64,000 nt of DNA from Patiria pectinifera (lineage: Eukaryota > Echinodermata > Asteroidea > Valvatida > Asterinidae): positions 30,865,366 to 30,929,365 of the forward strand of contig CM057135.1 of NCBI GenBank assembly GCA_029964075.1, given 5' to 3'. The first letter of the stretch is position 1; each line of letters starts with the position of its first letter. The notes beneath the pieces are model-generated. The model had not been told where the DNA came from. It made no database searches and worked only from the letters and a program-made list of their open reading frames with translations. Below are positions 13,201-21,554 of the stretch, piece after piece. The position numbers and the translations under genes were made by a program.

Positions 13201-16200
13201 TGCCAATTTGAAAATACAGTCGACTCTCGTTAGTACAAACTCTGTTAATACAAAATTCTGGTTATAACAAACATAAAGGCTTGGTCCCGACCGTGCATTT
13301 ATGTGCACAATGAATGGGACTGATGTTTCTCTTAATACAAAATTCTGATATAACAAACAATTTGGCTAGGCCCGAACGAGTTTGTTATAACGAGACTCGA
13401 CTGTAGTGGTTATTTCATCTCAAATTTCAAATGACGTCTAAAGTTTCAAGATGACAACCAAGACGCAAATACACAGATGGAATGACAAAAGGGTGGACAC
13501 CTGGACAAACAAATAGTGAGACACGAGCCATTCTATTTCTTCCAACTTACATCAAATTTGCCGAGGTTGGGTTTGAGTTTTCCTGCCAGGATTTTGAGTG
13601 CCGTTGATTTGCCGATACCGTTGGTGCCCACCAGACCTAACACCTCGCCTGGCCTGGGTATGGGTAACCTGCCATGAACAAACAGATTGACTTCAATTTC
13701 ATATTTAATACAAATTGGATTTTGAATGTACAAACGTGCAAAAAAGTGAATCGCCCATCTTACACATCTTAGATCTTTGACTTTAGAAGCACTTGGTACA
13801 ATATCTGTACTGTAAAATTATAATAACAATACACAAAATCTATCTATCCTTTGAATATTTGCCACTTGCCTGTGAAGCTTGAAGGAGTTTGCACTGTAAC
13901 GATGTGTGGTGTCCTTCTCTAAATTACTCGGTAGGTTGATGATGGTGATGGCCTCAAAAGGACATTTCTGTCAGAAATATATACAAGGGAGAAGACAATG
14001 AAGGGGAGACAGGTTGATCAAGTGGTACCTCCCTCTTTTTCAACCTCTATGACCTTGGTTGGAACCTCACTCACGCTAACCCAAGAATACCATAACAAGG
14101 TTTTTCCTACAAATGGAATACATGTATTTCCTTACTTTCCATCCCCTGTAGGTTCTTTTACGATTTCAAGGTACAATGCCCTGTGAAGTGTACAACTTTG
14201 CAGAATCTTTTTTTAACAAGGAATAAAAATGACAAAAATGGCCATCTTGGGTAAAGCAAGGCATCGCACATAATTCAAGTCATTAACCCTAACCCCCTAG
14301 GCCCTTGTTGCTTACAACCATCCTCAATCCTCCAAAATTTTTCAACTCCGCCTACATTTTTCAAAATTGTCAGACAGTCCTGCCTCAAAATACATTCATC
14401 CTCAATCCTCCAAAATCCTCCTCATCCCAAAACTTTGCACTCGTGTGTGACGTGAGGTGCCTGCAAGTTGCGAATTCATGTGATTATTATCATTAAATAG
14501 AGATAACAATCGATCACACACTTGAGATAAAACTACCAGAATTCATTCCAGCCAGCCGTACTCACGATGTCCGATCGGAAGCCGCCATCTTTGTTCTGCC
14601 GCTCAGTATATAACTCATGAATATTGATTAGGCCAGGCACTTACCATATTTGGGGTACGCCCTTACGGCGAAACCTTCGTACTAGAACGCATTTCTATTG
14701 TTTGGATTACGCGCGCGAGTTTTGCGTGCAAGGTCGCGTTGACCAATGAAATCATTTTTGTGACGCAGTTGTGGGCGGTATAAAAGTTCAAACGCCGCAC
14801 GAACGAATCAGTTGCCGATAGAGCTTGATGTGATTCGTTCAGGTTTTAGGGACGATCTGGTCGGCGGCAACTCACCGACTCAATTTACTCCGGGACTTTA
14901 TTGAAAGCGGGTTTGGGGCGATTGATAAGACGGGACAGGAAGAGGGTTCTACGTACCAGTGTTAGCGTCACTGCGATGTCAGCGTAGACTAAAGTATTTT
15001 CCAGCGGGGAGCTGGCGGAGTTATTGTAGTATTTTCCAGCGGGGAGCTGGCGGAGTTATTGAAGTATTTTCCAGCGGGGAGCTGGCGGAGTTATTGGAGT
15101 ATTTTCCAGCGGGGAGCTGGCGGAGTTATTGGAGTATTTTCCAGCGGGGAGCTGGCGGAGTTATTGGAGTATTTTTCCAGCTTGGTGCTAGCGGAGTCAT
15201 TCCAGCTAGGAGTTGGCGGGTAATTAATTGGGGATCGCCGGAGTAAACTGAGTTTGCGGTAGCCGGAGTAAACTGAATCATAGCCGGAGTAAACTGAGTC
15301 AGCGAGCTGACGTATTAACGTTGATTGACTGCAAATAATATTGTTGGAGTTTTTAAGAATAAATTATTGTTGAATTATAGAAGAAGTGTCTTCGTCCCTT
15401 TCTTAGTCATATCCAAATGAAGTAAGACTGCCTGGTTGTACATTTCAACCAAACGGATCCGGGAAATATAAATTTATTGTGACTTGGCATCATTACATCT
15501 AGCAAGGTGACGGCAGAAAGTCTTTAATAGCGCCCTCTACCCCACCTCGCCCGGCCGCCGCGTTACAATTGGCGTCGTAGACAGGATTTGGCAGTTTTAT
15601 TTGTTTTTACTAGTAGAGTTGCAGTTACTATGGACGAAGACGGCAGAAGCAAGCAGGGAAAGATAAAGACAAGAATGGAGCCTGGAAGCCAGGGCGGTGA
15701 AGGCGGAGAACCATCACCTTCCTGTGTGAACAGTCCGGGTGAAGAGGATCAAGAGAGGGGTACGAGTGTAGCTCCATCAGAGAGAAGATCTACACCTTAT
15801 CCGGGCAGCGAAGAATTGCGTCGTGGTCAAGGGCGAGATGACGAGACCAATTATCGGCAAGATACACGGAGAATATTGCAGGACGGAGACCAAGCACAGA
15901 CTGATTGGCAGGACGAGTCTTGGCAATTTCAACAATACTGGCGCCGTGAGTCCGATCCAGAGATTCAATTTCGACGAGATAATTATCGGGATATGGACGA
16001 ACCGGGACGAAGAGTGCCACCATGGGACTACTCTAGCAGAGGCAGAGCTGATACCTGGACTGGTCCTGAAGGATGTAGTCGTCATCAGCAGAATTCTGAC
16101 GATTGGCGGGGTCCACAATTCCACATGAATCGTTGGGGACGAGGCAATGGTGATCTGAGGGGAGAGTCACACAACGATGGGCCAGTTGGCAGACCGCGTG

Positions 16201-21554: not shown

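Follow-up and report, generated by a model that had tools for sequence, protein, structure and literature searches.

Gypsy-type LTR retrotransposons of Patiria pectinifera with a two-finger C2H2 gene at the env position and candidate recognition of their own LTR motif arrays

The window analysed here, which is the whole 64,000-nucleotide stretch of Patiria pectinifera contig CM057135.1, contains an LTR element with a gag gene and a second open reading frame (ORF2) encoding two C2H2 zinc fingers. The object of interest is the lineage in which such fingers and arrays of short LTR motifs match each other, and the layout seen in the window is a deletion product. Judged from their sequences, the members of this lineage are Ty3/Gypsy-type LTR retrotransposons that carry a two-finger C2H2 accessory gene (ORF3) at the env position, and the ORF3 fingers probably recognise the LTRs of their own family.

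Copy searches were performed against the 613.5-Mb host genome that contains the window, and the counts given are lower bounds. The labels A to J used for families are those of this analysis only, and the window element belongs to family A. The element is complete and young (Table 1), and the layout given in the preliminary description (LTRs, PBS-like site, polypurine tract, Gag with CCHC knuckle, and a 436-aa two-finger ORF with a charged repeat) was confirmed with small corrections of coordinates. Its paired LTRs had 0 mismatches in 1122 aligned columns and differ in length by the number of tandem repeats. LTRs, a short target site duplication (TSD), a PBS-like site and a polypurine tract are thus all present, as in Ty3/Gypsy-type elements.

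Table 1. Features of the window element, in window coordinates
Feature	Position	Strand	Basis
LTR element	14446..20308
TSD CGTG, 5' copy	14442..14445		flank comparison
TSD CGTG, 3' copy	20309..20312		flank comparison
5' LTR, 1122 bp	14446..15567	+	LTR alignment
TATA-like sequence in 5' LTR	14779..14784	+	consensus only
35-bp tandem repeats, 5' LTR; full units each with GGGGAG and GCGGAG	14993..15201	+
CCGGAG repeats, 5' LTR, after the 35-bp array	to ~15310	+
PBS-like site TGGCGTCGTAGACAGGAT	15570..15587	+	read from sequence
gag ORF (ATG at 15630, stop ends at 17126); final residues are post-integrase spacer	15630..17126	+
CCHC zinc knuckle of Gag	16950..16997	+	Pfam zf-CCHC, E 9.1e-7
junction left by the pol deletion, where gag meets post-integrase spacer; common to L016 and L017	17075..17076	+
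ORF2, intact, 436 aa; in the lineage this is ORF3, at the env position	17198..18508	+
C2H2 finger 1; helix positions -1 R, 3 N, 6 R	17222..17284	+	Pfam; helix positions by hand
C2H2 finger 2; helix positions -1 R, 3 D, 6 Q	17309..17374	+	Pfam; helix positions by hand
66-bp charged tandem repeat of ORF2	17420..17811	+
18-residue ORF2 motif, also in families B and C	18065..18118	+
ORF2 C-terminal domain, also in families B, C, F and H	18377..18505	+
Polypurine tract	18999..19010	+	read from sequence
3' LTR, 1298 bp	19011..20308	+	LTR alignment
35-bp repeats, 3' LTR (GGGGAG, GCGGAG)	19558..19871	+
CCGGAG-bearing repeats, 3' LTR	19907..20042	+

ORF2 was matched by Pfam zf-C2H2_4 (E 1.2e-7, two stretches). 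Pfam assigned no env family to the env-position ORF, which carries C2H2 fingers where a membrane fusogen might stand. The internal region contains no other long sense ORF, and neither the protease-RT-RNase H pieces nor the integrase pieces of the relatives L021 and L018 matched the internal region or the window by tblastn at E 0.01, which bears out the reported absence of protease, RT, RNase H and integrase. In a search of solved structures, the hits of Gag were nucleocapsid knuckles and a few weak ones to designed proteins, and those of the fingers were many C2H2 proteins, which adds little information; AlphaFold models built without an alignment had a mean pLDDT of 60.6 for ORF2 and 42.9 for the Gag core. 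No relatives of Gag, integrase or RT were confirmed in viral contigs in three of eight scans. Repeats of the CCTCAATCCTCC type flank the element on both sides (20376-20532 and about 14330-14430).

The full arrangement of gag, pol and ORF3, in that order, is found in family B, in the copy L021/L025 (C7:22.93 Mb), the LTRs of which are 97.2% alike. Its pol encodes protease, RT (RVT_1, 6.5e-37), RNase H and integrase in that order, with stops interrupting the present sequence, and ORF3 of family B encodes a two-finger C2H2 protein of 254 aa at the env position. An integrase DNA search of the host genome gave at least 41 matches (40 of 94 candidates scored). Among these, finger remnants follow integrase at 15 of the 16 loci checked (all 12 of a first set and three of four further loci). 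Both fingers lie in one open frame at seven of the first 12, which represent about five families (A, B, E, F and G) and include the L018 locus under the label L037; the four further loci have both fingers in families H, I and J and none within 1.9 kb at L054. Two of the remaining 25 integrase matches are pieces of L022, in which ORF3 is degraded. The ORF3 proteins begin with two fingers, followed by a variable and often charged middle part, and a C-terminal stretch (e.g. ALQDVLRGHVTKVTEIS...ETRVERIYE) is common to the proteins of families A, B, C, F and H; that of J aligns weakly and that of I unconvincingly. In family I, a long run of N stands directly after ORF3 (L058, C415:484750-487200).

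A DNA search with ORF2 found at least eight places including the window, of which five are matches at 91-94% identity, some partial (L016, L017, L020 and, twice, L018), and two are matches at 76% over 90 bp (L023 and L024). The recurrence of ORF2 at 91-94% in five other places, and of homologues with the same layout in divergent families, speaks against chance, and the possibility raised earlier that ORF2 occurs only here, as a single captured exon, is dismissed. The search with gag gave at least seven matches, comprising full-length matches of at least 99% (the window, L016 and L017), short matches at the spacer (L018 and L020), and two divergent relatives. The window, L016 and L017 all join gag to the ORF2 spacer at an identical junction, and integrase sequence precedes that same spacer, directly upstream of ORF2, in L018 and L020; pol was therefore deleted once and the derivative then moved. 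A TSD is recorded for two of the three pol-less copies (window, CGTG; L017, ATTG), and the LTR pairs of the three differ at 4 of 1105 columns in L017, at 0 of 726 in L016 (two compared segments) and at none in the window. Gag is open in the window and in L016, and a stop interrupts it in L017.

The window element is thus almost certainly a pol-deletion derivative of a gag-pol-ORF3 lineage. The preliminary description had instead placed the C2H2 protein in the position of pol, and the three copies with gag and ORF2 but without pol would suit such a replacement. However, the same ORF stands after integrase in L018 and L020, its homologues do likewise in the pol-bearing relatives, and pol is missing from between gag and the ORF, so that replacement is exceedingly improbable. 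What that description said of a non-autonomous element with its own Gag and a putative nucleic-acid-binding accessory, obliged to borrow pol, fits the data well: three copies with the same pol-less junction have moved in this way. Its suggestion that all other copies might contain pol fails for L016 and L017, although the family once had pol; and the search it proposed for copies and a partner yielded the other ORF2 copies and, among the loci read, no autonomous partner that is intact and has this LTR, both A-family integrase loci seen (L018 and L020) being broken. Non-autonomous elements of the TR-GAG type keep gag and borrow pol. The window element resembles them in its intact gag, its lack of pol and the common pol-less structure of its copies, and differs in keeping a second gene, ORF2, besides gag.

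In family C (L023 and L024), a gag fragment runs into the C-terminus of integrase, followed by ORF3, apparently a second loss of pol in which the third ORF was again retained. These two loci (C22:24.71 and 24.51 Mb) are near-identical and lie in opposite orientation about 200 kb apart. Two LTR subfamilies can be distinguished in family A, as the LTRs of L016, L018 and L020 are about 318 bp longer than those of the window and L017, after LTR position 399. A partial tandem duplication in L018 (4318-8992) has left two direct copies of ORF2 together with the start of the LTR. On the reverse strand of L020, from 4407, lies a copy flanked by the TSD CTAG, in which the first 25 or so LTR bases jump straight into integrase.

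Selection on ORF3 was estimated as dN/dS by the Nei-Gojobori method. For the open parts of ORF3 in family B, values of 0.15 (159 codons), 0.18 (154 codons) and 0.17 (22 codons) were obtained against L033, L034 and L032, respectively, and for the family F copies the value was 0.30 (312 codons, 23 changes). ORF2 of the window, for which the preliminary description had proposed such a test, gave 0.36 against L017 (16 changes) and 0.43 against L016 (39 changes); the comparison of L016 with L017 gave 0.69 on seven changes, and the fingers of family A alone, window against L020 or L018, gave 0.51 on three changes each. L031 yielded no estimate. These sequence comparisons indicate that ORF3 is under purifying selection, with dN/dS of 0.15-0.43, and 0.5-0.7 where changes are very few, and ORF3 is very probably a functional accessory gene. 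A splice-acceptor-like site, under a rule framed after the sites had been seen (at least 14 pyrimidines in 20, then AG, no more than 60 nt upstream of the ATG), lies upstream of ORF3 in five of six families (B, E, F, H and J), family A failing the same rule; the background is 315 of 2291 ATGs (0.137).

The sites expected from the fingers were derived with the usual C2H2 code, the helix-triplet pairs of which agree with a table in PMC5260015 (GAG with RSDNLVR, GCG with RSDDLVR, GGG with RSDKLVR, TGG with RSDHLTT). The code-derived sites (nCGGAG in A and E, GGGGAG in B, and GAGGnn in F, H and J) largely agree with the LTR arrays. Predictions were fixed before the LTRs were read for E and F, then for H, J and I, and later for G; those for A and B are post hoc. 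The LTR ends of E, H and J were set by eye in one copy each. In family B the residues at helix positions -1, 3 and 6 are K,N,R in finger 1 and R,H,R in finger 2, for which the code gives GGG-GAG, and GGGGAG occurs in its LTR 11 times on the plus strand (all TGGGGAGC) and twice on the other, ranking second of 4096 in this post hoc comparison. The 11 sites lie within 463 bp downstream of a TATA-like site and have differing flanks. The copy L060 has retained 10 of the 11 exactly, compared with 59.4% of the 377 8-mers other than these sites (p 0.028). For the fingers of family A (Table 1), the code predicts nCG-GAG. Of all 6-mers, CGGAGT has the highest count over four A LTRs, and it is found in repeats of two distinct types; its enrichment, post hoc, is first of 4096 in the 3' LTR and second in the 5' LTR. 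As exact 6-mers, GCGGAG and CCGGAG reach only ranks 22 and 32, and GGGGAG, the site predicted for B, is enriched slightly above CGGAG (log2 2.76 vs 2.49), the two being in the same 35-bp unit.

For family F, GAGGnA was predicted, and GAGGCG ranked first of 4096 in both copies, so that the last base was wrong; GAGG is first of the 256 4-mers in the F LTR (15 on the plus strand, three on the minus strand). With GAGGnn predicted for both H and J, GAGG was found 15 times on the plus and once on the minus strand in H (first by count and second by z of 256, with a small margin over CGGAG on both strands, 0.85 vs 0.74), and 16 and four times in J (second by z, fifth by count), where GAGGGT is first of 4096 by z. 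In L051, the first locus read for family E, the LTR is rearranged and CTGGAG stands in most of its units. The prediction of nCGGAG held in the second copy, L059, from which the E count was taken: by z, CTCCGG has rank 1 and GCGGAG rank 5 of 4096, and CGGAG occurs eight times per strand. No recognisable LTR was found in 2 kb at L061 for family G (prediction nCGGAA). When the three motifs were assigned to the six families, the true assignment scored best of 60 (12.26, next 9.99); with 60 possible assignments p cannot fall below 0.017, and the LTRs share ancestry and tandem arrays inflate the counts. The GAG half of the site is on the 3' side in A, B and E and on the 5' side in F, H and J, and shifts as the Arg-Asn-Arg finger (Lys-Asn-Arg in B) shifts from finger 1 to finger 2.

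The following mechanism is proposed. ORF3 would be made from a spliced subgenomic mRNA, and its protein would work in the nucleus, where the fingers would bind the arrayed short sites in the LTRs of their own element; the array could lend a two-finger protein enough avidity to single out its own family. The rest of the protein may then act on transcription or chromatin at the LTR, and activation or anti-silencing as the outcome is plausible, if somewhat doubtful. A pol-less derivative would retain the LTR, Gag and the regulator, the parts that it needs to recognise or supply, and borrow RT and integrase. Taken as a whole, the proposal is that an env-slot C2H2 protein serves as a 'self-address': finger residues and LTR arrays co-evolve in each family, activation or de-silencing by a family's protein falls mainly on copies of that family, and pol-less derivatives persist by keeping both halves; we regard its chances as evenly balanced. 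If the fingers do bind their own LTR arrays, LTR retrotransposons would have a sequence-specific self-recognition, and a known code would allow its target to be deduced from the protein. This would provide one use for a non-env ORF at the env position, show how a family could keep its regulation private and why pol-deleted copies retain a second gene, and make the families natural protein-DNA pairs for studying the evolution of the C2H2 code.

Agreement of fingers and motifs could alternatively be a coincidence of G-rich arrays, with ORF3 a conserved accessory in another nucleic-acid role and the arrays serving host transcription factors. The motifs are short, the LTRs share ancestry, and the fits in A, F and H are imperfect; yet most of the predictions fixed in advance held, and a shift of the Arg-Asn-Arg finger from finger 1 to finger 2 goes with a shift of the GAG half from 3' to 5'. 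We consider coincidence rather unlikely. ORF3 might also be an RNA factor, like HIV Rev or CERV of Cer1, that binds repeats in the element RNA for nuclear export or packaging of genomic RNA. Its place after pol, with an acceptor-like site, is that of spliced accessory genes, and CERV, an extra protein of the Gypsy-type LTR element Cer1 of C. elegans, is the product of a spliced mRNA and is needed for export of genomic RNA, according to the passages of PMC10309623 used here. The arrays of A and B, being downstream of the TATA-like site, lie within the transcript, and from its sequence the A unit CCAGCGGGGAGCTGG could form a hairpin whose complementarity is kept in L022 units (e.g. CCAGTTTGGAACTGG). 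Hairpins around the family B LTR motif were nevertheless rejected, as pairing of the flanks was no better than in shuffled flanks in any of 13 registers at 0.05 (lowest p 0.084). The family E sites on both strands and the position of 7 of 15 GAGG in family F upstream of a TATA-like site favour DNA as the target, and an RNA role, which would turn the agreement with a DNA code into a coincidence, is judged quite unlikely.

The fingers might also guide the integration complex, either towards particular places on the chromosomes or towards further LTRs of their family. This would make sense of a putative DNA-binding accessory beside integrase and of the way in which A, B and G copies cluster on contig C7. 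That clustering may instead reflect old duplication or heterochromatin, and the three sequences flanking TSDs have no common motif, which leaves this explanation very unlikely.

The proposed recognition of the family's own LTR by ORF3 has parallels in known systems. The gene for the foamy-virus transactivator Tas/Bel1 lies after pol, and this accessory protein binds the LTR of its virus, but the virus is a retrovirus that has env as well, and Tas/Bel1 lacks C2H2 fingers. In the passages of PMC5735166 drawn on here, VANC of the Arabidopsis VANDAL transposons binds tandem-arrayed short motifs of its own transposon and evolves along with them, both binding and demethylation being shown; the motifs vary among related families, and VANC combines conserved parts with a variable, often repetitive part. 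The likeness, a close one, is that of a transposon-encoded protein tied to tandem short motifs which differ per family, and in the present lineage, too, elements carry a tandemly arrayed short motif in their non-coding DNA. VANDALs, however, are plant DNA transposons unrelated to this LTR lineage, 'zinc finger' is absent from those passages, and for ORF3 the binding is a prediction. CERV differs in its RNA export role and in having no homology outside nematodes, and no C2H2 pair or match to LTR arrays is described for it in the part of PMC10309623 consulted. Rotifer and plant LTR elements (PMC5408684, PMC7264820) likewise have an additional ORF beside gag-pol, and the main texts of these two reviews contain none of the terms 'zinc finger', 'zinc-finger' and 'DNA-binding'. 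No described Gypsy family with a C2H2 gene at the env position was recognised among titles and abstract openings of the open-access literature, a scope that leaves Repbase-type reports outside.

Elsewhere in the window, a unit of about 2.47 kb is present in three tandem-like copies at 28666-33904 (99% and 82% against the reference, over 300 nt), and incomplete copies of it are found near 24028-25233. A 108-bp repeat is present in four copies with 94% matches at 1744-2171, and a G-rich minisatellite on TGGGT with strong GC skew lies at 10099-10934. On the minus strand, 37512-38672 contains a Gln/Pro-rich ORF of 386 aa.
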